Of a stretch of DNA of 29,897 nucleotides, positions 2,324 through 22,113 are shown piece by piece. Source of the stretch: a virus; the IMG/VR virus record IMGVR_UViG_3300032213_000168, positions 1 to 29,897 of that record, one strand, 5' to 3'. The notes under the pieces were generated by a model. It had not been told where the DNA came from. It saw only the letters and a list, made by a program, of their open reading frames with translations, and made no database searches. Numbering within the stretch: the stretch's first letter is position 1; every line of letters starts with the position of its first letter. A program made the position numbers and the translations under genes.

Positions 2324-5104
2324 ATGTCCGCACAAGTCACCATACTACAACTCCCAGCCGCTGGCGCTATCACAGGTGCTGAAGCGGTTCCTATTGTTCA
2401 AGGTGGCGTGACGGTGCAGACGACCACGGGCGCGATTGCCGCCGCCCCGTCGCAGGTTTACACCTACCTGACAGTTACGCAGACCCCGCAACTTCCAAAC
2501 AGCCGCTACGTTGGCGCGACCAATGGTTTGGTTATCACTGATGCTGGCGCTCAAGGACTCTTCAATATCAGCACCACAGGCGCTTTATTGTCGTTGGTGA
2601 ACTCTGGTACTGGCTTTCAGGTAAAAACGTCTTCTACAGCCATTACAGGGCGTTCTATCGCTGTTTCTGGCAACGGTCTGGCAATTACCAACGGCGACGG
2701 CATTGCAGGCAACCCAACCATCGCTTTGGATGGTCAAGTTTTGAACTTGGCAAACCTCAGTGCCAACGGCTTGTTGACCATCAGTTCTGGTGGCGCAATT
2801 AGCGCAACAACGATTGCTGGCACATCCAACCAAATTACGGTCACCAATGGCAGTGGCGTGAGTGGTGCGCCAACAATTGCCTTGGCAGACAACCCAGTTC
2901 TTGGCGGCACTGCCAGCCTGACTTTGCCTATTGGTGCGACAGGAAGTCGCCCAGTATCTGCCGTCAATGGCATGATTCGCTACAACTCAACGACTGCTCG
3001 ATTTGAGGGGTATCAGGGTGGCTCTTGGGTGACGCTGGGTTCTGGCGACGGTACGGTCACAAGCGTGAGCGGAACTTCTGACCAAATCACGGTTGTAAAC
3101 GCAACAACAACTCCAGTGGTAAGCATTGCGAGCAACCCAGTGATACCGGGGACTGGGAGCATCGCCGTTCCTGTTGGCACAACTGCACAGCGAAGCCTTG
3201 GCCCTGTCAACGGGATGTTCCGCTACAACACTACGACTGCGACCTTTGAAGGCTACGCAAACGGCGTGTGGGGTTCAATTGTTACGGGTTCTGGCGTTAC
3301 CTCGGTGGCTACGGGAACGGGTCTCACAGGTGGCCCAATCACCTCCACAGGCACAATTTCAATTGATGTGACTGGCGTTACTGCGGCAACTTATGGTTCC
3401 GCATCAACAGTCCCTCAGTTTGCGGTCAACGCTCAAGGTCAATTGACTTCTGCAACTAATGTGTCTATCTCTGCGACTGCCATCGGTGCGGTGACCTCCG
3501 TAAGCGGAACAGCCAACGAAATTACCTCAACTGGTGGTCAGACGCCTGTTTTGTCGTTGCCATCGGCTTTGACGTTCACTGGTAAGACGGTGACTGGCGG
3601 CGCATTCAACATGACTTCGGCAACTGTTGGGTCAGACACTGTTGCCACTTTGACCGCGACTCAGACATTGACCAACAAGTCCATGTCTGGCTCTGCCAAC
3701 ACATTTACAAACATCCCCAACAATGCGCTGACCAACAGCACCATTGTTTTGGGAACGACTACTATTGCCTTGGGTGGCACTTCACTGACTCCTGCTGGAT
3801 TGACCAGCGTGACGGTGACGCAAGACCCAACAAGCAATTTTCAGTTGGCGACCAAGCAATATGTTGATACCGTTGCATCAACTGGTATTCACTATCACAC
3901 CGCTGTTACCGTTGGGTCGCCAGTTTCCGCTGGAAACTTGACGGCGACTTACGCAAGTGGGGGAACAAGCACCACCATCACCACAATTGCAAGCGGTACT
4001 TACGTCACCTTTGCAAGCGGTGTTCCTGCAATTGGAACTCAAGTCACCACCGCAACCGCAAACGGTTTGGTTTCTGGAACTCAGTATTGGGTCACCGAGA
4101 TTGTTGGCGGAACAGTTCAGTTGTCATTGACCTATGGCGGAGCCGCCATCACAGGTTTGACAAACGGCACTGGCTTGTCGATTGCTTCCGTCCTCAACGC
4201 TGGTGTTGGTGCAACACTGACCAACGCAGGCACGCAAGCCGCTTTGACTATTGACGGCGTTCTGACTACCGTCGGTATGCGTGTGTTGATTTTCAACCAA
4301 ACAGACGCTACTCAAAACGGCGTGTACACCGTCACCACGGTGGGAACAATCTTGACGAATTGGGTATTGACCCGCGCAACTGACGCAAATACTTATTCGC
4401 CCTACAGCGCCAACTCTTTGGGTCAGGGCGATGCATTTTTTGTTTCGCAAGGTACACAACTTGCTGGCGAGACATGGGTTGTTTCTGCGACTGGCTCCAT
4501 CTTCTTCGGTCAGACAAACATCACGTTTGCTCAGATTTCAGACACTGCCGTCTACTCTGCTGGCACTGGTCTGACCCTGACTGGCACACAGTTCAGCATC
4601 AGTAACACTGCTGTGAGTGCAAACTCGTATGGCTCTGCAACTCAGGTCGGAACCTTCACCGTCAATGCACAAGGTCAATTGACCCTTGCAGGCAACACTA
4701 CAGTCACTCCAGCGGTCGGTTCTATCACTGGGTTAGGTACAGGGGTTGCGACATGGTTGGCAACACCTTCATCGGCAAATTTGGCGTCGGCAGTTACTGA
4801 TGAAACAGGTTCTGGTTCATTGGTCTTTGCAACGTCACCAACATTGGTTACACCTGTCCTTGGGACACCAACTTCTGTTACTCTAACGAATGCGACAGGG
4901 TTGCCTTTAACGACAGGCGTGACTGGAACGCTCCCAATTGCAAACGGCGGTACAAATTCAACTGCAACACCTACGGCAGGTGGCGCGGTTTATGGAACTG
5001 GAACTGCCTTTGCGTTTACGGCGGCAGGCACAGCGGGTCAAGTATTAACATCGGCAGGGTCAGGCGCACCAGTGTGGTCGGGCATCTCTGGCGGAACATT
5101 CTGA
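2324..5104 (+). CDS. Long tail-fibre-like structural protein (926 aa)
   Basis: The protein is dominated by Gly, Thr, Ser, Ala and Val, with no long hydrophobic or charged stretch, as is usual for trimeric fibre shafts. Two copies of a ~38-residue unit (residues about 202-240 and 283-321, each with VNGM-RYN-TTA-FEGY) are visible. Two copies of YGSA followed by F-VNAQGQLT occur near residues 357 and 770. Residues about 523-739 form a module with VGMRVLIFNQTD, NGVYTV and WVLTRATDANTY, seen in many phage fibres. The C terminus has LPIANGGTNST and AGQVLTSAGSGAPVW, another common fibre segment. It would sit on the virion exterior and contact the host; receptor and assembly state cannot be read from sequence. 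Confidence 0.8.
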   Translation: MSAQVTILQLPAAGAITGAEAVPIVQGGVTVQTTTGAIAAAPSQVYTYLTVTQTPQLPNSRYVGATNGLVITDAGAQGLFNISTTGALLSLVNSGTGFQVKTSSTAITGRSIAVSGNGLAITNGDGIAGNPTIALDGQVLNLANLSANGLLTISSGGAISATTIAGTSNQITVTNGSGVSGAPTIALADNPVLGGTASLTLPIGATGSRPVSAVNGMIRYNSTTARFEGYQGGSWVTLGSGDGTVTSVSGTSDQITVVNATTTPVVSIASNPVIPGTGSIAVPVGTTAQRSLGPVNGMFRYNTTTATFEGYANGVWGSIVTGSGVTSVATGTGLTGGPITSTGTISIDVTGVTAATYGSASTVPQFAVNAQGQLTSATNVSISATAIGAVTSVSGTANEITSTGGQTPVLSLPSALTFTGKTVTGGAFNMTSATVGSDTVATLTATQTLTNKSMSGSANTFTNIPNNALTNSTIVLGTTTIALGGTSLTPAGLTSVTVTQDPTSNFQLATKQYVDTVASTGIHYHTAVTVGSPVSAGNLTATYASGGTSTTITTIASGTYVTFASGVPAIGTQVTTATANGLVSGTQYWVTEIVGGTVQLSLTYGGAAITGLTNGTGLSIASVLNAGVGATLTNAGTQAALTIDGVLTTVGMRVLIFNQTDATQNGVYTVTTVGTILTNWVLTRATDANTYSPYSANSLGQGDAFFVSQGTQLAGETWVVSATGSIFFGQTNITFAQISDTAVYSAGTGLTLTGTQFSISNTAVSANSYGSATQVGTFTVNAQGQLTLAGNTTVTPAVGSITGLGTGVATWLATPSSANLASAVTDETGSGSLVFATSPTLVTPVLGTPTSVTLTNATGLPLTTGVTGTLPIANGGTNSTATPTAGGAVYGTGTAFAFTAAGTAGQVLTSAGSGAPVWSGISGGTF

Positions 5105-5115
5105 GGAAATAGAAA

Positions 5116-7824
5116 ATGGCACAAGCAGGCTACACCCCAATTCAGTTGTACTACTCGTCAACTGCGTCTGCCGTTCCTTTGGCGGCAAACCTTGCGGCTG
5201 GCGAATTGGCAATCAACACGACCGACGGCAAACTCTATTACAAGAGCAACGCTGGCGTTGTTTTGTTGTTGGCATCAAACGCCACCTCTGCTCCAGTTTT
5301 GTCATTCCAAACATCTTTGGGTGGTTTAACGCCATCAACTGCCACGACTGGTGTAGTGACTCTTGCAGGTACGTTGAATACAACTTCTGGCGGTACTGGT
5401 CTTACCTCATATACCGCAGGTGATTTGTCTTACTACGCCTCTGGTACAGCACTGACCAAGTTGGCTATCGGCACTTCAGGTTATTTGTTGACATCAAGCG
5501 GAACGGCTCCGCAATGGTCTAACAGCATCAGCATTGGCGCAGGAACATTTACATCCATTACGGATTCAGGCTTGACCTCTGGTCGCGTGACTTATGCAAC
5601 GACTGGAGGCTTGCTGACTGACTCTGCCAATTTGCTGTACAGCGGCACTGACCTGACTGTTTATGGCATCACAGTAGGCCGTGGTGCAGGTGCTGTGTCT
5701 ACCAATACTGCGGTGGGTGCAAGTGCTTTGGGGGCTAACGTAAGCGGTACTGCGAATACCGCAATTGGCGCAAATTCTTTGCAAAACAACACGGGTAGTA
5801 ACAATACCTCCGTCGGACGATTTGCAATGCAAACAAACGTGGGTGGAGGCGGTAATACCGCCGTTGGTTCTGCCGCACTTACAACAAATTCGGCTGGCGA
5901 TGGTAACACCGCAATTGGACAGCAGGCGTTACAAGCAAATACAGCATCTAACAACACTGCTGTAGGTTATCAGGCGGGTTATTCGACCACAGCCGCAAGC
6001 AACACGTTTTTAGGTTGGTCTGCTGGATACTTTAATAGCACAGGTACTAGTAACATAGCGGTTGGTTATGGGGCATATGCACAGAGTGGGACATTAGCCA
6101 CTGGCAATAACAATATTGCAATTGGTGATAATTCTCTGCGTTCAATTCAATCAGGTGCTAACAATACTGCTGTAGGTCATCAAGCAGGTTATTTGAACGC
6201 AGTTATTTCAAATCAAACTTTTGTAGGTTATCAAGCAGGTTATAGCCGCACTGCCAACAACGACAACTACTCAACAGTAATGGTTGGTTTTCAAGCGGGT
6301 TATTCAACTGTTAGCGGTATTGATAACACTTATGTTGGTGGTTATGCGGGTAAATTCCAAACAGGCTCAACTAATACAGCATTAGGTGGCGGTGCTTTAT
6401 ATGGTTCAAGCGGTTTATCAACTGGCATTGCAAACGTAGCAATTGGATATGCCGCAAGTCAAAACAATCAAAGTGGCTCATATAACGTGTCGGTTGGACA
6501 CTCTGCAAATGTTTCAAACACTGGTTCTTCAGGTTGTGTTGCTGTTGGCTATCAAGCGTTGTTTTTAAACACAGGGGGTTCAAGTTGCACTGCTATTGGC
6601 ACGCAGGCTTTGGCTAAATCCACTGTTTCCAATTACAACGTGGCGGTTGGTCATTCCGCTATGACCAATTGGAACAACACAGGCTCAGATGGAAGCGGTG
6701 TTGCAGTTGGGTATCAAGCGGCTGTAAACATGACAACCGCCTTGCGAACAACCGCTATTGGCTACCAAGCCATGTTAAACGCGACCACAGCAGGTTTCAA
6801 CACAGCCGTTGGTTCTGGCGCAATGGTTGGCCTTTCTGGAACCATCACAGGTACAGACAATATTGCAATTGGCTCTTGGCACGACGGCGTGATTGAAGGC
6901 CCAATGGCATATTTGTCAACAGGCTCTGAAAACGTAGCAGTTGGTCAAGCCTCAATGAAAGGCGGCGGCGTTGGGTTGTTGACTGGAAGTTACAACGCGG
7001 CTTTTGGTAATAGGTCTCTTGGGTCTATTACATCTGGCATCAACAACACCGCAATTGGCTACAACGCGGGTTACAACATTACATCGGGCCACGAAAATGT
7101 GTTTGTTGGTAGAAACGCTGGTTTCACCAACGCTGGCAACGCAAACACGTTTATTGGAGCCTACGCAGGTAACGTAAGCACTGGAAGTTCAAACACCTTC
7201 ATTGGCTCTGGGCTGGCTGGTTCAATCTACGCTTCTGGCGAGCGTATGACAACAGGCAACAAGAACACAATTGTTGGTAATTTTTCAGGCATTGTGAGCG
7301 GCATGGACATTTCTACGGCAAGCAACTATGTTGTGTTGTCTGACGGAGATGGAAATCCACGGGTGATAACCAATACTGACGGCTCAACTTTTGGGGCAAA
7401 AAGTGTAGGTTCTGGTTTTGCTGGTCTGACTGGGTATTCATTTAATGCCATGCTGTCCAAGCAAGGAACCGCATCTGGTGCAAAACAAGCGGTTACCTTC
7501 ACCATTAAGTATTTCCAAGGTAATAACGGTTGGGAGACTGGAAATTTATTGATTTATGTGTCTTCTTCTAAATTGGATGCGTCCAATAATTCGGGTGCGT
7601 GGTATTACTACACAGCCCTGCACTATGACACCGCTTGGAGTCTCACTTTAAAAGATAGCGGCGGTGACACCAGCGGTAGTTTTTCAATTACAAACACCAG
7701 CCCCGCTGGTGGATACAACACGCAAAAGACAGTCACTGTAACAATCACCACCGTGCCAAATACAGACACTATGGCCGCGCAAATTTTTTACTCCGACTAC
7801 CAAGGTGTCTACTCAATCACTTAA
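5116..7824 (+). CDS. Tail-fibre/adhesin-like protein with YadA-head-like repeats (902 aa)
   Basis: It starts at 5116 after GAGGAAATAG. Residues 1-60 look like a fibre attachment region (AGELAINTTDGKLYY), followed by GGTGLTSYTAGDLSYY. Residues about 196-725 hold roughly 30 repeats of 14-20 residues built on NTA(V/I)G-x-x-A, for example NTAVGYQAGYST. This resembles the left-handed beta-roll repeats of trimeric autotransporter heads. Residues about 755-902 form a distinct beta-rich C-terminal domain with aromatic strands (WETGNLLIYVSSSKL, GAWYYYTALHYDTAW). That domain could be the receptor-binding tip, by analogy with fibre architecture. No intramolecular chaperone or catalytic motif is evident. 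Many repeats are similar at the DNA level, so copy number may vary. Confidence 0.8.
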   Translation: MAQAGYTPIQLYYSSTASAVPLAANLAAGELAINTTDGKLYYKSNAGVVLLLASNATSAPVLSFQTSLGGLTPSTATTGVVTLAGTLNTTSGGTGLTSYTAGDLSYYASGTALTKLAIGTSGYLLTSSGTAPQWSNSISIGAGTFTSITDSGLTSGRVTYATTGGLLTDSANLLYSGTDLTVYGITVGRGAGAVSTNTAVGASALGANVSGTANTAIGANSLQNNTGSNNTSVGRFAMQTNVGGGGNTAVGSAALTTNSAGDGNTAIGQQALQANTASNNTAVGYQAGYSTTAASNTFLGWSAGYFNSTGTSNIAVGYGAYAQSGTLATGNNNIAIGDNSLRSIQSGANNTAVGHQAGYLNAVISNQTFVGYQAGYSRTANNDNYSTVMVGFQAGYSTVSGIDNTYVGGYAGKFQTGSTNTALGGGALYGSSGLSTGIANVAIGYAASQNNQSGSYNVSVGHSANVSNTGSSGCVAVGYQALFLNTGGSSCTAIGTQALAKSTVSNYNVAVGHSAMTNWNNTGSDGSGVAVGYQAAVNMTTALRTTAIGYQAMLNATTAGFNTAVGSGAMVGLSGTITGTDNIAIGSWHDGVIEGPMAYLSTGSENVAVGQASMKGGGVGLLTGSYNAAFGNRSLGSITSGINNTAIGYNAGYNITSGHENVFVGRNAGFTNAGNANTFIGAYAGNVSTGSSNTFIGSGLAGSIYASGERMTTGNKNTIVGNFSGIVSGMDISTASNYVVLSDGDGNPRVITNTDGSTFGAKSVGSGFAGLTGYSFNAMLSKQGTASGAKQAVTFTIKYFQGNNGWETGNLLIYVSSSKLDASNNSGAWYYYTALHYDTAWSLTLKDSGGDTSGSFSITNTSPAGGYNTQKTVTVTITTVPNTDTMAAQIFYSDYQGVYSIT
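5701..7290 (+). repeat. Degenerate tandem repeats encoding NTA(V/I)G units
   Basis: About 30 consecutive coding units of roughly 45-60 bases, each giving N-x-(A/T/F)-(V/I/F)-G followed by an Ala- or Tyr-rich half, such as GYQAGY. Recurrent DNA words include GGTTATCAAGCAGG and close variants near 5966, 6176, 6225, 6285 and 6546. Unit length varies, with longer units near 6860-6920 and 7200-7260, so the array is old and degenerate rather than a recent perfect expansion. Confidence 0.8.
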
Positions 7825-10722: not shown

Positions 10723-11964
10723 ATGAGTTTCAACTCCCCCTTTACAGGTAACGTCGTCCAGCCAACGGATGTCTCTTATCGCCGCATCATTCTGACGGAT
10801 GACTTGCAGTTGGAATGGCCTATCAACGGCACAACAACCGATGACGCCGCCGCCCGCATCATGGAGGTGTCAACCGCCTCCACCGCAAACGAATTGTGGA
10901 TGCCTCCTGCTAATCAAGCCTCGGTAGGTCAGGACGCGCTGATTCGCAACGTAGGCGCTGTTACCCTCACAGTCAAGACATATGGCGGTGCAGGCACGAT
11001 TGTCTCAATTGCCGCAGGCGAAGCGCAGTACATCTACATCACGGCAAACGCAACGACCGCAGGCACTTGGGGCATCATTGCCTACGGTATTGGCTCATCT
11101 GGCGCTGATGCCGCGACTCTTGCAGGTTATGGTCTGATTGCAATCGGTCAGACGTTGAACCAGTCTCAGCCTGTCACGAACTTCTCGTCCAACTACACAG
11201 CGGTCTTTGCTGACCTTGCAAACGCCTATGTGTGGACAGGTGGCGCAGGCACGTTGACCTTGAGTTCTGCAACTACCTTGGGCAACTCTTGGTTCATGCT
11301 TTTGCGCAACAGCGGCACTGGCGCATTGACTGTTACAGGCACTGGCGGGCAACTTATCAATGGCTCGACTTCTATTGTTTTACAGCCGACAGACTCAGCC
11401 ATCATTGTCTGTTCTGGAACCACTTTTTACACCGTTGGTTTGGGCAAGTCAACGCAGTTTGCTTTTACCCAACTGACCAAAGCGGTTACGAATGGAACCT
11501 ACACCCTGACAGCCTCTGAAGCCGCCAACGTGGTGCAGAAGTACACAGGTACTTTGACAGGCAACGTCACCATCATCGTTCCTCCAACAGTGCAGGTGTA
11601 CTACATTCAGAACGCTACAGTGGGTGGTGTAAGCAACTATTCAATCACAATTACCACCAACACTGGCGGCTCTTCCGCAACGATTGCTTCCAACCAACAA
11701 GCAACGCTGATTTGCGACTCTGTGAACTTGGTGAACGCCAACACGGTGTTGGCAGGTTCATCTTCGATTGGTTTGGTGGACGGAACGGTTGGCGCTCCTG
11801 CGCTGTACTTTGGTTCTGAACCATCAACAGGTTTGTACCGCGCCGCATCTGGTGAGTACAACATTGCCATCCTTGGCGTGTTGCGCTCTACTTTGTCGGC
11901 AACTGGTTTGGCAATTGTTGGGACAGGAAACTTCACAGGCGGTATCTCTGGCGGAGTGTACTAA
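10723..11964 (+). CDS. Beta-rich virion structural protein, fibre-like
   Basis: A 413-residue protein. The N-terminal 110 residues have FTGNVVQPTDVSYRRIIL, ARIMEVSTAS, LWMPPANQASVGQDALIRNV and AGEAQYIYITANATTAGTWG, a module repeatedly seen next to adaptor and nozzle genes in podovirus-like genomes. The middle is made of Gly/Thr/Val beta repeats. The C terminus has GAPALYFGSEPSTGLYRA followed by GNFTGGISGGVY, typical of fibre or tail-tip proteins. It probably decorates the tail near the nozzle. The terminal SGGVY resembles the terminal SGGTF of the 926-residue fibre. Its TAA overlaps the next ATG by one base (TAATG). Confidence 0.7.
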   Translation: MSFNSPFTGNVVQPTDVSYRRIILTDDLQLEWPINGTTTDDAAARIMEVSTASTANELWMPPANQASVGQDALIRNVGAVTLTVKTYGGAGTIVSIAAGEAQYIYITANATTAGTWGIIAYGIGSSGADAATLAGYGLIAIGQTLNQSQPVTNFSSNYTAVFADLANAYVWTGGAGTLTLSSATTLGNSWFMLLRNSGTGALTVTGTGGQLINGSTSIVLQPTDSAIIVCSGTTFYTVGLGKSTQFAFTQLTKAVTNGTYTLTASEAANVVQKYTGTLTGNVTIIVPPTVQVYYIQNATVGGVSNYSITITTNTGGSSATIASNQQATLICDSVNLVNANTVLAGSSSIGLVDGTVGAPALYFGSEPSTGLYRAASGEYNIAILGVLRSTLSATGLAIVGTGNFTGGISGGVY

Positions 11965-14210
11965 TGACCAAAAAAGTTTTTGCGATTGACACAGGCGCTG
12001 GCATTCAGCGCGACGGTACTGTGTTTGACATGAACTTTTACACCGACGGAAAATGGGTAAGGTTTCAACGTGGTCGTCCTCGCAAAATTGCAGGATACCG
12101 CGCCATCGTCAATGATGCGCATGGATACTCTCGCGGCATCTACGTCAATTCGGTAGACGGCTTTAACCAAGTCTTCAACGGCTACAACAATGGTCTTGAA
12201 GTCGTTGTAATTGACAACAATGGTATTGGTGCAGGCACAAACCAAATCAATCTTGGCGCACCCATCCTGACGCTTAACACGCTCGTTGGAGGCTCTGCCT
12301 ATACCAATGGCACATACACCAATGTAAACCTCACTGGAGGCACTGGAACGGGCGCTAAAGCCACGATTGTGGTGGCTGGTAACGTAGTGTCCACCGTGAC
12401 CTTAACGACGGCAGGAACCTACTACCAAGTGGGCGACACATTGTCTGCAACAGCGGCAAGCATTGGTGGAACAGGTTCTGGCTTTTCAATCAAGGTTGCA
12501 ACAACCAACGGAACATTCATTCCTAGTGATTTGAATCTGTGGCAGTTTGATTCCATGTTCGACTCACAGGGTTCTGGCAATCAATTGTTGCTTGCGCACG
12601 CTGGTCAAAATCTTGCGCAAATTGACGCAATTGTGAACACCAGCGTGTTTGCTGGCCCCATAAACGGCTTGAACATGGCTCCGCTGTCTGACACTGTTGG
12701 AACATCCCCAAGTGGTGACATCATCTCCGTGTCTGGTGGCGTGGTTGTTTTGCACCCCTATGTCTTTGTCTACGGCGACAACGGTCTTATCAAGAATTGC
12801 GTTGCAGGCAATCCCTATAACTGGAACGGTGAAGACGCCAACGAGACCAACGTCGCGTCAACCAAGATTGTCAAAGGCTTACCAGTTCGCGGTGGCTCCA
12901 ATGCCCCCTCTGGTTTGTTTTGGGCGCTTGACTCTTTGATTCGTGTGTCTTACGCGCCCACGACTGTGACCGTTGGCGGAGCCGCCCGCACGTTCTACTG
13001 GCGCTACGACATCATCTCCAGCCAGTCATCCATCTTGTCAAGCCAGTCTGTGATTGAGTACGACGGCATCTACTACTGGTGTGGTGTTGACCGCTTCTTG
13101 CTGTACAACGGCGTAGTCAAAGAAATCAAAAACAATTTCAACCAGAACTACTTCTTTGACAACCTGAACTACAACCAACGCCAGAAGGTGTGGGCGCAGA
13201 AGGTTCCTCGCTTCGGTGAAATCTGGTGGTTCTATCCATCAGGAGACAGCGAAGAGTGCAACAACGCAGTTATTTACAACGTCCGTGAAGACGTTTGGTA
13301 TGACGCTGGCTTTGCTTTAGGCGCACGCCGCACGGCTGGGTTTTTCTCGCAAGTGTTCAAGTACCCCATCAATGCTGGTGAAGACCTGACTGTTCAAGAA
13401 ACTTTGTTCACTGCGGATATTGCGACTACAAACGCAAGCGCCGTGATGACCATGTCAGTCAACAACGAGGTTGCTTACGGTCAATTGATTGTCGCAACAG
13501 GTGTTCCTTCTGGCGCTTATGTCTCAACCATCGTGGCAAACTCTGCCGCTACCACAGCAACAGGAAGTTCTGGCGCAAGCACCATCACGGTGGCAAGCGC
13601 CACAGGCATCTTGCGCAATCAGTTGGTGATTGGTACTGGGATTGCCGCAGGCGCAACCGTGGTCAGCATTGTTGGCACGACCGTGACTTTGTCCATCGCC
13701 AATACTGGCGCTGTCTCTGGTGCTGTCTCGTTCTCTGGAACCACCGTCACCATGTCAGCGGCGGCAACTGCAACTGCAATTGTCTCTGCCAACTTCCAAA
13801 GCGTGCCAAATCGCATCACGCTATGGCAACACGAAATTGGCACTGATGAAGTTATTTTTGAATCTTCAAACGCCATTGAGAGTTCGTTCCAAACATCAGA
13901 CTTGGGATGGGTGCAGGGCGGCCCTGCCCAGACCTCACCCGTCGGTGACAACTACTGGTTGCACTTAGAGCGGATGGAGCCTGACTTCATCATGTCTGGC
14001 GAGATGACATTCCAAGTGACTGGGCGCACATTTGCGCAGGCGGAAGACGTAACGTCTGACCCCTACCCATTTAGCCCAGACACCAAAAAGATTGACTTGC
14101 GAGAGCAACGCAGGGAACTGCGATTGATATTCACAAGCAATGTGCAAGGCGGCGATTACCAACTCGGTAAAATTCTGTTGAGCGCAAACGTAGGCGATGT
14201 GAGACCGTAA
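11964..14210 (+). CDS. Tail nozzle-like / DNA-stabilisation-like protein with inserted beta modules
   Basis: A 748-residue protein that reads like a beta-propeller tail protein (P22 gp10 or T7 gp12 class). It has DGTVFDMNFYTDGKWVRFQR and RPRKIAGY near the start, VFVYGDNGLIKNC and GNPYNWNG mid-protein, and IISSQSSILSSQSVIEYDG with YYWCGVDRFLLYNG, KVWAQKVPRFGEIWWFYP and YNVREDVWYD later. The C terminus has TGRTFAQAEDVTSDPYPF and LREQRRELRLIFTSN, common in this class. Residues about 98-185 (SAYTNGTYTNVNLTGG, GTYYQVGDTLSA) and 484-609 look like exchangeable inserts. It probably forms the distal tail tube closing the DNA channel. The start is fixed by TAATG coupling with the previous gene. Confidence 0.7.
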   Translation: MTKKVFAIDTGAGIQRDGTVFDMNFYTDGKWVRFQRGRPRKIAGYRAIVNDAHGYSRGIYVNSVDGFNQVFNGYNNGLEVVVIDNNGIGAGTNQINLGAPILTLNTLVGGSAYTNGTYTNVNLTGGTGTGAKATIVVAGNVVSTVTLTTAGTYYQVGDTLSATAASIGGTGSGFSIKVATTNGTFIPSDLNLWQFDSMFDSQGSGNQLLLAHAGQNLAQIDAIVNTSVFAGPINGLNMAPLSDTVGTSPSGDIISVSGGVVVLHPYVFVYGDNGLIKNCVAGNPYNWNGEDANETNVASTKIVKGLPVRGGSNAPSGLFWALDSLIRVSYAPTTVTVGGAARTFYWRYDIISSQSSILSSQSVIEYDGIYYWCGVDRFLLYNGVVKEIKNNFNQNYFFDNLNYNQRQKVWAQKVPRFGEIWWFYPSGDSEECNNAVIYNVREDVWYDAGFALGARRTAGFFSQVFKYPINAGEDLTVQETLFTADIATTNASAVMTMSVNNEVAYGQLIVATGVPSGAYVSTIVANSAATTATGSSGASTITVASATGILRNQLVIGTGIAAGATVVSIVGTTVTLSIANTGAVSGAVSFSGTTVTMSAAATATAIVSANFQSVPNRITLWQHEIGTDEVIFESSNAIESSFQTSDLGWVQGGPAQTSPVGDNYWLHLERMEPDFIMSGEMTFQVTGRTFAQAEDVTSDPYPFSPDTKKIDLREQRRELRLIFTSNVQGGDYQLGKILLSANVGDVRP

Positions 14211-14211
14211 C

Positions 14212-14472
14212 ATGGCGCTCGCACTTGTCTACGACCCTCGCTATCACGACTTCCAGTCATGGGCGTGCTTGATGTGCGAGGCGTATGCAGGACAGCAATT
14301 AGCCATTCCAAACCAACAAACAGATTGGAAAGAGTGGGCGGCGGGGCTTAAAGCCATCGACGTTTTTGTGAACGAGGGGATACCCGGCCCCTACCTGTAC
14401 GAGAACTGGTACGACTGGGCATCCGCTCTGGTCGGAGCCGTCAATCAACCTACACAGGAACTGGCAACATGA
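14212..14472 (+). CDS. Small Trp-rich phage protein (86 aa), unknown
   Basis: The product has an internally repeated pattern, F--W-C-M-EAYAGQQLAIP then W--WA-GL------VNEGIP-PYLYENWYDWASALV. This suggests two helix-turn units in which Trp-Trp pairs pack together. Similar short proteins with DW--WA motifs occur after nozzle genes in related phages. There is no membrane segment or catalytic motif. The stop overlaps the next start by 4 bases (ATGA), so it is probably coupled with the acyl carrier protein gene. The function is unknown; a minor virion component is the likeliest guess from position. Confidence 0.7.
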   Translation: MALALVYDPRYHDFQSWACLMCEAYAGQQLAIPNQQTDWKEWAAGLKAIDVFVNEGIPGPYLYENWYDWASALVGAVNQPTQELAT

Positions 14473-14750
14473 ACTTCTTAGAACTACTCAACGCGGTGGC
14501 GAAACTCGCACGCCCTATTCACTTTGAAACCGTCACCATCACCGACATGGAAACCCCCTTCCAAGAGATTGGAATTGACAGTCTCGACGGTCTAGTGATG
14601 ATGATGTATCTGACAGAACTCTACGGCATCGAAGAAGAGGTGTGCAAGGAGTGGAGTCCCAAAACCCCACAAGAGATGCACGACTTGCTGATGGCCCACA
14701 AGACCCGTGAGCCTGCCTCCGTCGAAGAGGCAATGGAGCAGTGCAAGTGA
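14469..14750 (+). CDS. Acyl carrier protein
   Basis: A 93-residue acidic protein with the ACP core FQEIGIDSLDGLVMMMYLTE. Ser38 in GIDSLDGL is the expected 4'-phosphopantetheine attachment site, followed by the hydrophobic and acidic recognition helix II. The later segment WSPKTPQEMHDLLM matches the helix IV region (TP-E-HDLL). The length is slightly above a type II ACP, with a short C-terminal extension (about residues 80-93). It would carry acyl chains as thioesters in the host cytoplasm after activation by a phosphopantetheinyl transferase, presumably from the host since none is seen here. It overlaps genes on both sides, and the next gene is a ketosynthase, which strongly supports the call. 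Confidence 0.88.
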   Translation: MNFLELLNAVAKLARPIHFETVTITDMETPFQEIGIDSLDGLVMMMYLTELYGIEEEVCKEWSPKTPQEMHDLLMAHKTREPASVEEAMEQCK

Positions 14751-15856
14751 TATACCTCACCCACTTCCGAACAGCGGCAACAACAGACTACGAGTTGTTT
14801 GACGACGTAGTGTTCCCTCAAAAGGTTCACTGGTTTCCTGACACCTACACCCGCGCAAAAAGCGGGCTTTTTTATGTCCCCCACCGCCTTGCTGAGAAGG
14901 TGCTGGACAACCAACTTCTCTCTTATTTGCGCGAGAACCCAGTTGGCAAGACCGCTTTCATCCTTGCTGGTGGCAATGCCCACTTTGCGGGGATAGGCCC
15001 GCGCCACTACGACAACCGCTTGTCCTACGTCTACAAGTTCATGCCATTTAGCCTCACGCAGGTGTTTGCAGGGCGTACAGCGCAAGCCTGCGGCTCAATG
15101 GATATGGTGACCACAGACGCCTCCGCCTGCGCCTCCAGCCTCAAGGTGATGATGGATGTACAGAACCTGATTCGACACTATGACTTTGACCGCGTGATTG
15201 TGCTGACCGTCGAGGATGGCGTGACAAACGCTGTTCTGGAGTTTTTTGGTGAAGCCAAGGCGGTGCTGACCCAAAAGCAGGAAGAGACTGGCATAAAGCC
15301 ATCCGCTTTCGACTCAACAAACTTTGGGTTTCGCATCGGTCAGGGAGCCGCTTTCGCTGTATTTGAGAGCGAGAGGGCTGTCAATCAGCAAAACCTCACG
15401 CCCCATGCTGAACTTTTGGGGGCATATAGCGCCTCAGAAAATTCGACAAATGCTATCGGACAATGCGAAAATGGTGAAGGCTTTGCAAAAGCGATGTCAG
15501 GTGCGATGCATTACTCAAAAGTAAACCCCGAAGACATCAAGATTGTGAAGGCGCACGGTACTGGAACAGCGTCGAATAACTTGTCAGAAAAAACCGCGCT
15601 TGGTAATACGCTGAAGGCTTTTGTGGCGACCTCGTACAAGCAAAAGATTGGTCACACTATGGGTAGCAGTGGATTGCTGGAAACATTACTATTGCTTCAA
15701 GACATGAAGAACGGTTTTGTCCCTGCAATTGAGAATCGAACCGAAACCGATTCGGTATACCTTTCGGAATCAATCAGCCCTCCAGAGGGTCTGGTAATGA
15801 GTTTGGCGGCAGGGATGGGGAATATCTATTCTGCCGCAATTTTTAAGGGGCTTTGA
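14747..15856 (+). CDS. Beta-ketoacyl-ACP synthase (KAS I/II-like condensing enzyme)
   Basis: A 369-residue thiolase-fold enzyme. All three active-site residues are visible: Cys128 in DASACASS, His270 in VKAHGTGTASNN and His303 in QKIGHTMGSSG. Lys298 sits five residues before the second His, where FabF has its conserved Lys. AFDSTNFGFRIGQGAAFAVF matches the family's FD---GF--G-GA segment. The canonical reaction is condensation of malonyl-ACP with an acyl thioester. The start is the GTG at 14747 in a GTGA overlap with the ACP stop, with GGAG 8 bases upstream; the GTG at 14741 is too close to that site. Oddities: it is about 40 residues shorter than FabF, and the C-terminal GFGGTN loop is replaced by GMGN (356-359). 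The altered loop may mean changed chain handling or acyl transfer. Confidence 0.9.
   Translation: MIYLTHFRTAATTDYELFDDVVFPQKVHWFPDTYTRAKSGLFYVPHRLAEKVLDNQLLSYLRENPVGKTAFILAGGNAHFAGIGPRHYDNRLSYVYKFMPFSLTQVFAGRTAQACGSMDMVTTDASACASSLKVMMDVQNLIRHYDFDRVIVLTVEDGVTNAVLEFFGEAKAVLTQKQEETGIKPSAFDSTNFGFRIGQGAAFAVFESERAVNQQNLTPHAELLGAYSASENSTNAIGQCENGEGFAKAMSGAMHYSKVNPEDIKIVKAHGTGTASNNLSEKTALGNTLKAFVATSYKQKIGHTMGSSGLLETLLLLQDMKNGFVPAIENRTETDSVYLSESISPPEGLVMSLAAGMGNIYSAAIFKGL
14850..14873 (+). terminator. Terminator-like hairpin inside the ketosynthase gene
   Basis: CCCGC (14850-14854) pairs with GCGGG (14862-14866) across the loop GCAAAAA and is followed by C and six T residues. The arrangement looks like an intrinsic terminator, although it lies within codons 35-43 of the ketosynthase. 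The five-pair stem is short. It may be coincidental coding sequence, or an attenuator lowering expression of the ketosynthase and downstream genes. Confidence 0.4.
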
Positions 15857-15857
15857 T

Positions 15858-16304
15858 ATGCAGATGGTAGACAGCAACCAACAGAAACTGACAAGCGAGC
15901 AGATTATTGAAATCGCCGCTGAGAATACCAAGAATGGTCGCCCCATTGAAGACATTAAGAATATGCTGAAGGTTGAATTCAGTATGCCTAACGTCTGGAA
16001 GATGCAACAGGGCAACACCATTTTTGTGGTGCATAAAACCAAGATTGCTGGCTGTGGTTTTTTTCGCGCATTGAATGCTGATACCGCCCGCAACTTCCTT
16101 GCAAATAGCCGAGTCTTCGCCGCCGCCGCCTACAAAGTAGGTTTCGACACGGTGGTGACTCAATTCACCGAGCCGACCATCTTGAATATCTTTCAAGCCA
16201 TTGGTCGCGACAAGCCCGCCAACATGGGATATGCCGTCCAGAAGACAAGCGACGGCGGCTACCAAGTTACTCTGACGCTGGGCGCTAAACGAGGAGCCAA
16301 ATAA
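15858..16304 (+). CDS. GNAT-fold-like small phage protein (possible T7 gp13 / P22 gp14 counterpart)
   Basis: A 148-residue protein starting one base after the ketosynthase stop. The first ~45 residues are helical. The rest reads as the second half of a GNAT fold: strands NTIFVVHKT and KIAGCGFFRAL, helix TARNFLANSRVFAAAAYKVG, strand FDTVVTQFTE, helix PTILNIFQAIG and a final beta hairpin GYAVQKTSDGGYQVTLTLG. The usual CoA-binding Q/R-x-x-G-x-G/A motif is not visible. T7 gp13 and P22 gp14 are small proteins encoded just before the ejection-protein genes, and this gene has the same position. An assembly role is therefore likely. Use of acyl-ACP from the preceding genes is only a hypothesis. Confidence 0.55.
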   Translation: MQMVDSNQQKLTSEQIIEIAAENTKNGRPIEDIKNMLKVEFSMPNVWKMQQGNTIFVVHKTKIAGCGFFRALNADTARNFLANSRVFAAAAYKVGFDTVVTQFTEPTILNIFQAIGRDKPANMGYAVQKTSDGGYQVTLTLGAKRGAK

Positions 16305-18187
16305 TGAGTGCAGTTATTGAAGCCATTGCAGACGCCGTTGGCGACGTCTTAGAGGCTGTTGGTGACGTTGTTGAGGACGTTGTTGACCTTGCAGAAGACG
16401 TTGTTGACTTTGTCGCAGAAAACCCTCTGTTGCTTGTCGCCGCTATTGCCGCGCCTTATGCTCTTGGGGCGTTTGCCGCAGAGGCTGGTGTTGTTGGCGC
16501 ACTTGAAGTTGCGGGAGCCGCAGAGGCAATTGAGATTGGAACGGCTGTTCTTGAGGCTACGGAAGTTGCCACCGCTGTAGCGTCAGCAGAAGCCGCCGCC
16601 GCAACCACCGTGATTGAGGCTGGTGCAACCATTGCTGAAGCCTCCGCCGCCGCAACTGCCGTGGCAGAGGGCGCAACTGTTGCAGAGGCTGTTACGGTCG
16701 CAACTGGTGGCGCTGTTGAGGCAAGCGCAATTGCTGAAGTTGCCACGACTGCCGCATCAGAAGCCGCAACCACAAGCGCATGGGAGACACTTTCTCAAGC
16801 CGCACAAAACATTACATCGACGATTGGTGAAACGCTCGCCCCCGGCGCAGACGCCTCCATCCAAAAAACCATCGGACAAGTTGCCTTGAACACCGCCACC
16901 AACGGCGGTGACTTGGAAAAGGGTTTAGAAACCACCTTCCTGTCCCTTGGTACAGGTTTTCTTGGCTCCGAGGTTGCAAGCGCAACTGGGTCTGAACTTG
17001 CTGGTCGCGTTGCCGCAAACGCAACAAACCAATTGGTACGCACTGGTGATGTCAACCTTACTGGATTGGCAAGCGGTGAAATTGGAAAACTGGTTGGCAG
17101 TGAAGTTGCTGACGAGACTGGCTCCAACCTTTTAGGTAAAGCCGCGTCAACCGTAACAAGTAGCACCCTGCAAGGAAAAGACGCAACCACTGGGTTGCTG
17201 AACCTTGGCATTGGTGAGGCGGTCAACACCGCATTCAACGCAGGCAACGACATAATCACTGGCGCTCCAAAGGCTGAGACCGTAAGCGACATCACTGGTG
17301 GAGATACAACAGCCACATCAAATGCGACTGACACTGTGCTAGGTACAACTGGAGTCCTAGACACAGTTACTGACGAAGACACGGTGTTAACTGGTGACAC
17401 AACGCCTGTCGGCGGTCTTGCCGCTGTAACTCAGACACCTACGATTACAACCTCTGACGACACTGGTTCAACTGCTGTGGTCATTCCTGATGACTTGTCT
17501 ACAGTTACCAGTGCTACATCACCAACAGTCAGCATTGATGACTTGACAAATGTCACCAAAGTCACTTCACCCGTAATTACGGGAGGTGATGATGTTATTG
17601 ATATTGTTGATGATACTGACCTGACTCCAGTCGTAACTGGCGCAACAACTACTGCAACAACTCCCGCAACAACTGTCTCAACAGCCGATGACGATTTGCA
17701 AACGCAGATTGATGCAATCGTTTCTCCTGAAGGCGGTAAAACTACAAGTGTTGTGACCGCTGAAGATGTTTTGTCGCCAAAAACAACGGTCACAACTGAC
17801 GAAGTTCCTGCTGGCGGTTTGAATATTATTCAAAAGACGCAAACAGAAGAACCTGTAGTTGACGCTGTTACTGGCGAGGTCAAAACGCCAACTACATCTA
17901 GCAACATTCCGTTGGCTGGCAGTGGAATTGTTTCTGGTCTCATCAAGAGCAATCTTACAAAGTCCCTCAACAAATCATTGGCTCCAGCCAAGAAGCCTGC
18001 TGGTGGATTGAAGACTGCTTTGAAGCCTGTCACCCCCGTGAAGAAAGCGGCGGCGGCTCCAAAGATGGACATCTCCAAACTGATTCCAATTGCCAAAGCG
18101 CCAGTAAAACCTACCGCGCCCAAAGGCAATTTGACACCAGTTACAAACATTGCTGGGCTGACATCAATGCTCAAGAAAGCGGGATAA
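16304..18187 (+). CDS. Large Ala/Thr-rich internal-virion-like protein (627 aa)
   Basis: The first 40 residues are an acidic amphipathic helix built from repeated V-D-V-V-E-like units (AVGDVVEDVVDLAEDVVDFV), followed by a hydrophobic stretch (PLLLVAAIAAPYALGAFAA). Residues about 60-160 are almost entirely Ala, Val, Glu and Thr, predicted helical. Residues about 160-320 contain Gly/Ser/Ala segments. The rest is a Thr/Asp-rich disordered region, ending in a Lys/Pro/Ala-rich basic tail. No enzyme motif is seen. Position first in the block that ends with a hydrolase-bearing protein suggests an ejection protein able to interact with membranes, which is inference. The start is set by TAATG overlap. 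Confidence 0.65.
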   Translation: MSAVIEAIADAVGDVLEAVGDVVEDVVDLAEDVVDFVAENPLLLVAAIAAPYALGAFAAEAGVVGALEVAGAAEAIEIGTAVLEATEVATAVASAEAAAATTVIEAGATIAEASAAATAVAEGATVAEAVTVATGGAVEASAIAEVATTAASEAATTSAWETLSQAAQNITSTIGETLAPGADASIQKTIGQVALNTATNGGDLEKGLETTFLSLGTGFLGSEVASATGSELAGRVAANATNQLVRTGDVNLTGLASGEIGKLVGSEVADETGSNLLGKAASTVTSSTLQGKDATTGLLNLGIGEAVNTAFNAGNDIITGAPKAETVSDITGGDTTATSNATDTVLGTTGVLDTVTDEDTVLTGDTTPVGGLAAVTQTPTITTSDDTGSTAVVIPDDLSTVTSATSPTVSIDDLTNVTKVTSPVITGGDDVIDIVDDTDLTPVVTGATTTATTPATTVSTADDDLQTQIDAIVSPEGGKTTSVVTAEDVLSPKTTVTTDEVPAGGLNIIQKTQTEEPVVDAVTGEVKTPTTSSNIPLAGSGIVSGLIKSNLTKSLNKSLAPAKKPAGGLKTALKPVTPVKKAAAAPKMDISKLIPIAKAPVKPTAPKGNLTPVTNIAGLTSMLKKAG

Positions 18188-18190
18188 AAA

Positions 18191-21106
18191 ATGGCTATTC
18201 TCCAAAAGCGCACATCAAGAAATCAATTGCCACAAGCGCGTGGATTGGAGCGTTCGCCTCTGTCTAGTGTTATCCGCGATGTTGACAATGCAAGACCTAA
18301 TGCTGGGTTCTTTGAATCCACTCGTCCTGAAGCACGCCGCATTACTTCAACAGGCGGCGTGAAGCCTTTGTCAAAAATAAACCAGCGCGAGAACATCTCT
18401 AACCCTGCTTTGGTTAGGGAGCCGCTGAGTCCATTTACGCCAAAGGCTCCCATCACTTCTAAAGTGGCTACGACAAAGCCCGCGATTACAAAACCTCCAG
18501 TCACAAAGCCGCCAGTTACAAAACCAACAACCAAGCCTGCGGTCACAAAGACTCCAGTGACTACTAAGCCTTCAATTACGTCGAAGACTACTACGCCTAC
18601 GACTAAGACGACCACGCCTACAACGTCAACTACGAAGCCTGCAATCACCACCAAGACGACTGCACCTACGGCTACGACCAAGACAACGCCAACAAGCACC
18701 GTTACAAAGCCAACAGTCACCAAGACTACTGGCACTGGCAATAATTTGACGAGCAAAGTTACCAACGCCGTCACTGGCGCTGTGATTGGTGCTGGAACAA
18801 AATTGTTGATTGACAAAATTACTGGCAAGCCTGTTGTCAAAACTGGCACTGGAACAACTGGTGGCACTGGCGGCAAAACAACCACCACACCAAACACGAC
18901 TGGCTCCAAAACAACCACGACTCCAAAGACAACACCCAAGACAACGCCAAAACCAACTACGCCAACTGGAAAAGTTACGCCAAAAACAACGACTCCAGTT
19001 ACAAGCAAGGTGTTAACTCAAGATGAGATTGATGCAGAACTTGCACGGGTCAAGGCGTCTGAAGAAAACATAGGTCTTCCAGAAGGCGCTGTTGACAATG
19101 GCGACGGAACTTATTCCGTTGTTGATGGCGAGTTCAAAACAATTTACGATGCCAGCGGCAATATCATAGGCATGGAAGCGGCTGAAACCACTGACACCAC
19201 AACTGGCAGTGATACCACCACTGGCGACGACACTAGCGGTGAACCTCAATACTTTACTGATGAAGATGGCAATGTCTGGTCTATGGATTCAGGTGGCGCG
19301 TATACGCTGTTCCAGTACGCTGATGGAACCAGCCCAGACGACACTACAGCCGAAGAAGAAAACATTTACACAGACCCTGAGACAGGCGCAATTTGGACAC
19401 TGGGCGAGGATGGTGAGTGGACAACTGACTACGTTGAACCTGAAACAGAAGAAGACAATACTTGGACTGACCCTGAAACAGGTAATGTTTGGCTGATGGA
19501 CACTGATGGAAATTGGAACAACACTTCAGATACAGGCGAAGACACCGCTGAAGAAACTACCGATGAAGTCGTCGAGGAAGAGGAAGAGATTCCAGAAGAA
19601 CGTAAGGGCGGGCTAATTACTATGATGAAACGTGGCGGAGTTCCGCATTTTGATGACGGCGGCGATGTCTCCTATATGCCTGAAGACGCTGAAGACAACG
19701 GCGATGGCACATTCACGCTGGACAACGTGGTCTATGACATGATGTCTGGTGACCCGCTGTACACAATGGATGATGATGGCAACATCATTTCCGTTGAGGC
19801 TTCTGCAAACTCTGGCTACGTTGACAATGGCGATGGCACATACACACTCAATGGCACAACCTTTGATGTGGAAACCGATATGCCCTTGTACCGTGACAAC
19901 CCCAAAGGTGGTGTTGACCTTGTTGAAGACAATGGTGACGGCACTTACACCGTGGGCGGCTCGACCTACAGCATGGACGGCAACAAGCGTTTGTATGACA
20001 CCGACAAGAGCGGGAACATTGTTAACGTAAGCCCTGACGCTCGCTACACCTCTGGCAATCCATTGGTAAACACTGGCGGCGGTAGCAACACCGTTGACAA
20101 AGGCTTCCTTGACACCATCACTGGCGCTCTTGGAACTACCGCAGGCGCGGCTGGTGCTGGCGCGTTGCTGGCTTCACTGCTTGGCGGTGACTTCGGTGGC
20201 GGAACTGGCAGTCAAAACCAAGGCGTGGATATGTCCAAGGTGGGCGTCATCAATCCGCGCACCACTGACTTTGGGATTGGCCCAACACGCTACGTTGGCT
20301 ACGAGGACTACGGCGTTGCGCCTGACCAAGAGTACACGCCCAATGAGGAGTTGTTGAAGAACCTGAACGCCCCCGGCTACAACCCCGTGAACGAAGGTGA
20401 CTATGGCTACGCCGAAGACGATATGCCTCCCGATGAACACATGATGGGCGAAACCGAAGAAACTGAGGAGCCACCCAAGATGGCAAATGGCGGTCTGTCC
20501 GCAATGGCTCCACAAGCCTCTCAGACGCACTTTACGTTTGGCAAACCCGTTGACGTATACGCTACCCTTGGTTTGCGCGAAGCGCCTGTTGCGTCGCCTG
20601 TAGACCAGCCTCGTCCTGTTGAGCCTCCTCCAAGCCCACAGCCTCAAGGTCAGCAGGGTCAGCAAGGTCAACAACCTCCTGCTGGGATGCCTATGGGTTT
20701 GCAAAAGCCTCCGCTCCAGCAGATGGGTACTCCGCAGGCTATGCCTCCACAACCTCCCGCAGGCATTCCTAAAGGTGTTCCTCCTGCTGGCGCTATGCGC
20801 AAGGGCGGTTTGCCGCACGCCTCCAACGTCCCAATGGTCGAAGGTCGCTACGACTTCCGCAACGGCTCGGCTGTGCATGGCGCAGGCGATGGACAATCGG
20901 ACGACATCCCAGCGATGTTGGCGGATGGAGAATACGTCATCGACGCAGAGACCGTGGCACAGATTGGTAACGGTTCAACAAAGGCTGGCGCACAGGCGTT
21001 GGACAAGTTCCGTGAGAGCATTCGCGCCCACAAGCGCTCTGCCCCGCTGAACAAGATTCCACCTAAGACCAAGGCGCTTACCTCATATCTCAAAGGAGCA
21101 AAATAA
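18191..21106 (+). CDS. Large modular virion protein with Thr-Lys-Pro linkers and NGDGTY repeats (971 aa)
   Basis: The N terminus is basic (residues 1-80). Residues about 93-275 are a Thr/Lys/Pro-rich low-complexity region, interrupted near 185-215 by a short hydrophobic helix (NAVTGAVIGAGTKLLIDKI). The acidic middle has three WxxDPETGxxW-like units (about 355-440) and four (D)NGDGT(Y/F) units (near residues 301, 501, 544 and 578). A Gly/Ala-rich hydrophobic stretch follows at about 645-680 (AGAAGAGALLASLLGG), then a Pro/Gln-rich linker. The C-terminal ~80 residues have VEGRYDFRNGSAVHGAG, DDIPAMLADGEYVIDAETV and ALTSYLKGAK, widely shared by phage virion proteins. It is probably an internal or tail-associated structural protein. 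Confidence 0.65.
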   Translation: MAILQKRTSRNQLPQARGLERSPLSSVIRDVDNARPNAGFFESTRPEARRITSTGGVKPLSKINQRENISNPALVREPLSPFTPKAPITSKVATTKPAITKPPVTKPPVTKPTTKPAVTKTPVTTKPSITSKTTTPTTKTTTPTTSTTKPAITTKTTAPTATTKTTPTSTVTKPTVTKTTGTGNNLTSKVTNAVTGAVIGAGTKLLIDKITGKPVVKTGTGTTGGTGGKTTTTPNTTGSKTTTTPKTTPKTTPKPTTPTGKVTPKTTTPVTSKVLTQDEIDAELARVKASEENIGLPEGAVDNGDGTYSVVDGEFKTIYDASGNIIGMEAAETTDTTTGSDTTTGDDTSGEPQYFTDEDGNVWSMDSGGAYTLFQYADGTSPDDTTAEEENIYTDPETGAIWTLGEDGEWTTDYVEPETEEDNTWTDPETGNVWLMDTDGNWNNTSDTGEDTAEETTDEVVEEEEEIPEERKGGLITMMKRGGVPHFDDGGDVSYMPEDAEDNGDGTFTLDNVVYDMMSGDPLYTMDDDGNIISVEASANSGYVDNGDGTYTLNGTTFDVETDMPLYRDNPKGGVDLVEDNGDGTYTVGGSTYSMDGNKRLYDTDKSGNIVNVSPDARYTSGNPLVNTGGGSNTVDKGFLDTITGALGTTAGAAGAGALLASLLGGDFGGGTGSQNQGVDMSKVGVINPRTTDFGIGPTRYVGYEDYGVAPDQEYTPNEELLKNLNAPGYNPVNEGDYGYAEDDMPPDEHMMGETEETEEPPKMANGGLSAMAPQASQTHFTFGKPVDVYATLGLREAPVASPVDQPRPVEPPPSPQPQGQQGQQGQQPPAGMPMGLQKPPLQQMGTPQAMPPQPPAGIPKGVPPAGAMRKGGLPHASNVPMVEGRYDFRNGSAVHGAGDGQSDDIPAMLADGEYVIDAETVAQIGNGSTKAGAQALDKFRESIRAHKRSAPLNKIPPKTKALTSYLKGAK
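18468..19008 (+). repeat. Thr-Lys-Pro coding low-complexity repeats
   Basis: Imperfect repeats rich in ACNACNAAG and CCNGTNACAAAG words encode KPPVTKPPVTKP-, KTTTPTTK- and TTPKTTPK-type sequence. The stretch at about 18728-18840 interrupts them with a hydrophobic segment. The repeats give long antisense open frames that are not genes. They probably encode an extended flexible linker. Confidence 0.75.
19090..20037 (+). repeat. Dispersed coding repeats: NGDGT(Y/F) and DPETG/Trp units
   Basis: Four copies of (V/E)DNGDGT(Y/F) are encoded at about 19090, 19690, 19819 and 19923, each followed by two short beta strands and an SGNI-, DGNI- or similar turn. Between the first two lie three acidic units with W-(S/T/L)-D--G and DPETG at about 19255, 19369 and 19459. 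The units resemble beta-hairpin repeats. Aspartate-rich turns could bind divalent cations, but this is not shown. Confidence 0.65.
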
Positions 21107-22113
21107 TGGCTGGCTTATTTCAAGGTGACCCGCTACCAGCGATAACCAAGACGACGGAGCAACAACAGACCGCTCCAGAGTTTTACACGAACTACCTCCA
21201 AGACATTGCAAACTTGGGTCAAAACGCCGTCCAGCAGGGCGGTGTGGCTGGGTTCAGCCCACTGCAACAGCAAGCCTTCCAAATGGCTCCAGACGTCGCG
21301 TTTGCGGGTCAGGGTAGTTTGGGTGCGGCATCTCAATTGATGGGTCAGGCGGGCGCTACAACCGTCCCTGATGTCATTGGCGACTACATGAACCCCTACA
21401 CCTCTGGTGTGGTGAATGAGATGAGTCGCTTGAGCAACCGCAACGTGATGGAAAACGTGTTGCCAAACCTCGGCGCTGGCGCTGTGGGTTCTGGTCAGTT
21501 TGGCTCGCGTCGTCAACAGCAGTTGACAGGTCAAACCTTGCGTGACATTCAGGCTGACTTGGCTGGCAAGCAAGGTCAACTTCTCCAGTCTGGTTACAAC
21601 ACTGCCGCAACAACTGCGCAGGCTGACTTGCAACGTGCCTTGCAGGCTGGTCAAGGCTTTACCAATTTAGGTCAAGAGCAACAACAACTTGGTCAGGGCG
21701 GTTTGAAGACTTTGTTTGATTACGGCACTGCCCAACAAAAGCAGGGTCAGGCTTTGCTCGATTACCCAATGGCACAGACTCAGCAGTTTGCTAAGTTGAT
21801 GCAGGGTTATCAGATGCCTATGGGAAGCACCACGCAGGCAACAGGCTCCGAGGGTTACTCAAACAGCCCTCTGTCGCAGATTGCTGGTCTGGGTTCTTTG
21901 TTTGCTTCTTTGTTCCCGAACACTGGAGCATCCGACGCACAGAAGGCATACTACGAAGAGTTGACTCGCCAAGCAACAAAACCCAAAAAGGATGGCGGCT
22001 CAATTACCAAGCGCGGAATTCGTCTTGCCGATGGCGGGATGGCTCCAGTCGATGCGGCATATCACGATGGCAACGGAAATTATTACGATGCCGACGGCTA
22101 CTTAGTGGAGTAA
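21106..22113 (+). CDS. Gln/Gly-rich internal-virion-like protein (335 aa)
   Basis: The start codon overlaps the previous stop (TAATG). The N terminus (PEFYTNYLQDIANLGQNAVQ) and the segment GFSPLQQQAFQMAP are common in phage proteins of this position. DYMNPYTSGVVNEMSRLSNR and SGQFGSRRQQQLTGQTLRDI then lead into a long Gln/Ala-rich helix (about 135-225, ADLQRALQAG, LGQEQQQLGQGG). The C-terminal part has a short hydrophobic stretch (IAGLGSLFASLFP) and a tail with DGGSITKRGIRLADGG. Such helical, Gln-rich proteins are candidates for DNA-ejection proteins. I know of no biochemical function for this family. Confidence 0.65.
   Translation: MAGLFQGDPLPAITKTTEQQQTAPEFYTNYLQDIANLGQNAVQQGGVAGFSPLQQQAFQMAPDVAFAGQGSLGAASQLMGQAGATTVPDVIGDYMNPYTSGVVNEMSRLSNRNVMENVLPNLGAGAVGSGQFGSRRQQQLTGQTLRDIQADLAGKQGQLLQSGYNTAATTAQADLQRALQAGQGFTNLGQEQQQLGQGGLKTLFDYGTAQQKQGQALLDYPMAQTQQFAKLMQGYQMPMGSTTQATGSEGYSNSPLSQIAGLGSLFASLFPNTGASDAQKAYYEELTRQATKPKKDGGSITKRGIRLADGGMAPVDAAYHDGNGNYYDADGYLVE

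Follow-up and report, generated by a model that had tools for sequence, protein, structure and literature searches.

Acyl-ACP, an acyl chain held on an acyl carrier protein (ACP), is the substrate of HlyC-type enzymes. One of this kind, ApxIC, has a GNAT-like fold without the CoA-binding elements and uses acyl-ACP (PMC8339906), and another, CdiC, acylates class IV CdiA with 3-hydroxydecanoate (PMC8510554). In phages, GNAT-type genes occur at the gp13 position of T7-like marine phages, where a morphogenesis role has been suggested (PMC6775973). Phage ACP and ketosynthase (KS) genes stand side by side in roseobacter prophages, in the host-like order fabG-acpP-fabF (PMC8224337), and a phage ACP is found in Alteromonas phage R22Y (PMC11705849). 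Phage acpP and fabF have thus been reported as auxiliary metabolic genes of fatty acid synthesis, and it is already known that GNAT genes can lie close to those of ejection proteins.

Here we describe a viral locus in which these known enzyme kinds appear in a new setting, as an ACP-KS-GNAT cassette tied to a domain of a neighbouring putative ejection protein. The stretch analysed, called the window below, comes from IMG/VR and is a virus record 29,897 bases long. Among the open-access papers searched we found no report of an ACP-KS-GNAT cassette in phages or of its tie to an ejection-protein domain, nor of N-terminal acylation by a phage GNAT using acyl-ACP. That the three genes form an acyl-transfer cassette serving the injection machinery is the reading we favour, with somewhat less than even confidence. 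The context is the question of how short-tailed phages get the channel that they inject across the envelope of the cell.

Organization of the locus

The genes from the nozzle gene to the putative ejection gene are all on the + strand. The nozzle or stabilisation-type virion structural protein (11964..14210, phrog_3287), whose homolog in the public record MW202545 is annotated as 'phage stabilization protein', is followed on its 3' side by the gene of a small 86-aa protein (14212..14472), which relatives possess whether or not they carry the module and which therefore marks the insertion site. A diverged ACP (14469..14750), a KS of 369 aa (14747..15856) and a GNAT-fold protein of 148 aa, the predicted acyltransferase and third cassette member (15858..16304), come next. 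The following gene (16304..18187) encodes a 627-aa protein, which we regard as a putative ejection or internal virion protein from its operon place: the nozzle gene lies on one side of it, and on the other, at 21106-22113, a match to a DNA ejection protein (phrog_4287).

The open reading frames, Ser38 of the ACP, Cys128, His270 and His303 of the KS and the GTGA overlap given in a preliminary description of this DNA were all borne out in the sequence; in the overlap, the ACP stop TGA occupies 14748-14750 and the KS start GTG 14747-14749. That description saw no acyltransferase nearby, a point which has to be revised, as the very next gene has a predicted GNAT acyltransferase fold and always travels with the pair.

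The ketosynthase and its carrier protein

The KS is, with certainty as far as sequence can assign it, a predicted beta-ketoacyl-ACP synthase of the KAS I/II (FabF-like) superfamily. It matched PF02801 (1.7e-17, 64 bits) and PF00109 (9.8e-11, 42.2 bits), both over the cut-off of 20.8, and the NCBIfam FabF model (E 1.1e-33), where its 116.6 bits fell far below the FabF equivalog cut-off of 493.75 bits (TIGR03150). In the PDB, 106 sequences matched at E ≤0.01, with the best match, to FabF enzymes, at 6.4e-24. In PHROGs, residues 2-319 matched phrog_35856 (E 4.3e-39), a family listed without function. C128, H270, H303 and the fourth catalytic residue, K298, are invariant in 76/76 sequences.

The predicted KS model had a mean pLDDT of 68 from a shallow alignment, and the alignments for structure prediction were built without MW202545. 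It resembles FabF/KAS II and the type II polyketide KS with its ACP (AntDE:AntF, PDB 6smp) with Z about 29 over 310-327 residues, sharing with both the thiolase-type fold, the Cys-His-Lys-His active site and an ACP encoded alongside. The phage enzyme differs from them in having only about 20% identity and a shorter N-terminal third (369 vs about 410 aa) that is not sequence-aligned. It also comes without a chain-length-factor partner or reductase. The C-terminal SFGFGG loop of FabF is LAAGMGN in the window KS (14747-15856), and Ala355 is invariant in 76 loci. This alanine takes the place of the acyl-pocket gating Phe of FabF.

The ACP was identified from the conservation of its phosphopantetheine serine (S38, in DSLDG), from its family profile and from its adjacency to the KS. 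As a single sequence it matched PF00550 weakly (E 0.0068, 17.1 bits, under the cut-off of 20.8), and 4 of 24 family members matched this model. The family profile found 40 PDB sequences (best E 1.4e-4), almost all of which bear the name acyl carrier protein, and D37, S38 and L39 are invariant in 81/81 sequences. The phage ACP is far in sequence from host AcpP; in the PDB profile alignment, hydrophobic residues stand at some of the positions where ordinary ACPs have the acidic residues of their recognition helix, which would fit a private partner.

The GNAT-fold third gene

Pfam, PHROGs and PDB profile searches with the third gene gave only noise, so far as a sequence family is concerned. Its AF2 model (pLDDT 87, pTM 0.82) matched many GNATs in VIA-align, including RimI and phosphinothricin acetyltransferases, with Z about 11 over 122-133 residues at 2.9-3.3 A. 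Foldseek matches included the acyl-homoserine-lactone (AHL) synthases TofI and LasI, which are acyl-ACP users, and SbzI, a carrier-protein-dependent GNAT that was solved with its carrier protein. Matches in BFVD included 'Internal virion protein A'. From the modelled fold, the protein is a predicted acyltransferase.

Inspected by eye, the CoA-binding R/Q-x-x-G-x-G/A loop after strand 4 is missing and reads NADTARN. A CoA-using GNAT is therefore less likely, while a GNAT-fold acyl-ACP transferase is unaffected, ApxIC too being without CoA-binding elements. The loop does not decide on catalysis, since the same appearance would be expected of a GNAT that is non-catalytic. As in the HlyC/ApxC/CdiC-type lysyl acyltransferases, a GNAT-like fold adjoins the protein that would be modified, with acyl-ACP as the donor in our model. 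The phage cassette differs from those systems in that no sequence match was seen, it brings its own ACP and KS, and the proposed target is an N-terminus rather than a lysine. Nor is the His-Asp dyad of HlyC-type enzymes strictly conserved: D75 is kept, and H59 is absent in MW202545, L275 and L215, the first of which does have the KS. With T7 gp13 and the 'internal virion protein A' GNAT-type proteins the third gene shares the fold and the place between nozzle and ejection proteins; unlike them, it has a coupled ACP-KS pair at its side in the majority of members.

Spread and selection of the cassette

By pattern scan, at least 372 IMG/VR stretches encode a relative of the KS, and the carriers, most of them uncultured, make up a large group of phages from water. 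The ACP lies directly upstream in 92/92 distinct viral KS genes with enough upstream sequence. Among the first 81 loci collected, the ACP was present in all and the third gene wherever the contig reaches, barring a few contig-end cases. Median pairwise dN/dS was 0.093 for the ACP, 0.082 for the KS, 0.087 for the third gene and 0.154 for the 86-aa gene (the pairs are not independent). The number of stretches, the constant adjacency and the low dN/dS together mean that the ACP-KS association is not due to chance. The view that the pair is dedicated, co-evolving and part of the late virion block, between nozzle and ejection genes, is thus upheld by adjacency and strong purifying selection; far from being absent in relatives or under relaxed selection, the pair evolves at a dN/dS of about 0.09.

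MW202545 has all three genes, with the KS annotated as 3-oxoacyl-ACP synthase and the other two as hypothetical. When genome contigs were scanned for cellular relatives of the KS, the single match was L083 (JAGYJQ010000016.1), although diverged relatives could escape this pattern scan. L083, a contig that resembles phage DNA and was assigned to a Balneolaceae MAG, has the same gene order and a KS 58% identical; the binning is possibly a host hint and possibly an error. No nozzle was detectable in its closest viral relatives (L146-L155) using the window nozzle protein.

In ten KS-containing contigs of 48-55 kb, no PPTase, FabG-type or malonyl-transferase gene was found with PF01648, PF13561 and PF00698, for which cellular genomes served as positive controls. 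The host must therefore supply phosphopantetheine, malonyl-ACP and any reduction.

Co-variation with the ejection-protein domain

The nozzle protein was used as bait, so that phages were fetched regardless of the module. Among those whose sequence runs on downstream for at least 2 kb, the KS was present in 17 and absent from 31. The GNAT-like gene was present in 16/16 complete KS-containing loci and in 3/31 KS-less loci. In the KS-less relatives the ejection gene is usually directly 3' of the 86-aa gene. The Caulobacter phages, the nearest isolates by nozzle, were not among the matches for any of the three genes (KS, ACP and third gene). In Caulobacter phage GB2A the small gene is directly followed by the next large gene. 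No KS was found elsewhere in 12 KS-less records, which may be fragments, by a search run without a positive control.

With few exceptions among the phages carrying the GNAT-like gene, the gene 3' of it opens with an acidic amphipathic domain. This domain starts M-[S/G]-A-V and continues into a conserved segment around DPLP...TAARGGDLEDIALSAG. Residue 2 is Ser or Gly in 76/80 sequences, residue 3 is Ala in 74/80 and residue 4 is Val in 74/80. Lysine is rare (mean 0.9 per 60 residues). In the window, the domain spans about 120 aa (16304..16663, + strand); it co-varies with the GNAT-like gene and is a candidate acylation target. The 627-aa protein is of unusual composition: its first 187 residues contain neither Lys nor Arg, residue 188 being the earliest, which leaves the N-terminal amine as the main amine on offer.

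A profile of this domain, trained on KS-containing phages, matched 19/19 loci with the GNAT-like gene, including three KS-less loci outside the training set, and 0/28 loci lacking both GNAT-like gene and KS (L256, which ends before the GNAT-like gene, was left out of the count). On a nozzle tree of 77 phages, the domain occurred in 55/55 carriers of the GNAT-like gene and in 0/22 phages lacking that gene. Domain and GNAT-like gene agreed in 6/6 independent contrasts, all on branches with support (p 0.031 by a sign test); for KS and GNAT-like gene, 5-6 of 7 contrasts ran in the same direction and none in the opposite one. ACP-KS was found only in phages with both the GNAT-like gene and the N-terminal domain. 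Out of sample, MW202545 (with KS) carries the domain (E 2.9e-29) and GB2A (no KS) does not. Physical linkage or joint recombination of neighbouring genes could, even with no functional link, be part of the source of this co-variation.

A possible route of protein acylation

The genes, intact active-site residues, predicted folds, adjacency, selection and GNAT-domain co-variation are established; from these we infer a route, in which all of the chemistry, as well as the target and any benefit to the phage, is to be read as conditional. The position of the cassette suggests, short of proof, that the phage makes its own acyl group to modify an injected protein. A host AcpS-type enzyme would load phosphopantetheine onto S38 of the phage ACP. 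The phage KS may then join a host acyl group and an ACP-carried malonyl into a special beta-ketoacyl chain on the phage ACP, or the chain may simply be loaded on it. From there the GNAT-fold protein would transfer this chain to the adjacent putative ejection protein. Because the N-terminal domain of that protein is nearly lysine-free, the amino group that receives the chain would most likely be the alpha-amine bared by Met removal at M-[S/G]-A-V. The lipidated amphipathic N-terminus might aid entry of the ejected protein into the host envelope. In this full form, with an acyl group from the phage ACP and KS capped onto the N-terminus of an ejected channel protein by a GNAT-fold transferase, virus-encoded protein acylation is a tentative proposal, to which we give somewhat less weight than to the cassette as such.

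If it is true, lipidation of injected proteins by a phage-made acyl group would make membrane entry approachable by chemical means, and bacterial viruses would have a counterpart to the capsid proteins that are myristoylated in some animal viruses. It would also give a purpose to GNAT-type proteins beside ejection genes in many phages, and hundreds of aquatic phages would have a carrier-protein pathway for virion assembly instead of metabolism.

Alternative explanations

The main rival, which we hold to be rather unlikely, is that the GNAT-fold protein has no catalytic role and, resembling T7 gp13, acts in morphogenesis for this type of ejection protein. ACP-KS would then separately make an acyl product destined elsewhere, for instance for a tail protein or for the envelope of the host. 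The role suggested for GNAT-type genes at the gp13 position, the 'Internal virion protein A' match and the missing CoA loop are all in line with this. So are the GNAT-like homologs without ACP-KS (L215, L258 and L275), which mean that this protein can work without the pair, in such phages perhaps only as an assembly factor. A morphogenesis factor leaves unexplained, however, why ACP-KS is confined to loci with the GNAT-like gene (16/16 vs 3/31) and lies directly upstream of it. The preliminary description offered two roles, an acyl chain for a virion protein and altered host membrane lipids. The second, an auxiliary metabolic pair redirecting host fatty-acid synthesis or membrane lipids late in infection, is how the roseobacter-prophage genes have been read, and the ACP of R22Y is a further precedent. 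In our locus, by contrast, the pair is diverged, far from host FabF and AcpP, without fabG and inside the virion block. Since the module tracks the ejection-protein domain and the ten long contigs gave no reductase, malonyl transferase or PPTase, the virion-protein role is favoured and the lipid role appears improbable.

Still lower we place the production of a small acylated molecule, signal or toxin-like, by a GNAT-like protein acting as an AHL synthase. TofI ranked third and LasI 49th in Foldseek, and KS, ACP and transferase would suffice for a simple acyl amide; yet the top VIA-align rows held only ordinary N-acetyltransferases and acyltransferases, and such a product would account neither for the gene position nor for the co-variation with the ejection domain. 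As for the genes being drifting cargo without function for the phage, the slot between the 86-aa and ejection genes does hold other enzymes in relatives (a QueC-like protein, a glycosyltransferase and a PF10118 protein), but strong purifying selection and invariant active sites across many contigs contradict drift, and we give this explanation hardly any credence.

Other genes in the slot

Modifying enzymes appear to be exchanged for one another at this slot. In L215 and L258, both KS-less, it holds the GNAT-like gene alone. In L275 (9413-10623), a PF10118 metal-hydrolase-type protein (9.2e-37) is directly upstream of the GNAT-like homolog, as if another enzyme took the place of ACP-KS. The KS-less L228 encodes a QueC-like PP-loop protein there (6448-7092; PF06508 1.1e-8, phrog_1550 1.9e-15), and L271 a PF11397 GlcNAc-type glycosyltransferase (4279-5223; 3.8e-54). 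Outside the slot, a YdaS-type helix-turn-helix protein (PF15943, 1.5e-10) is encoded at 28595-28807 of the window, upstream of a DUF1376 protein.
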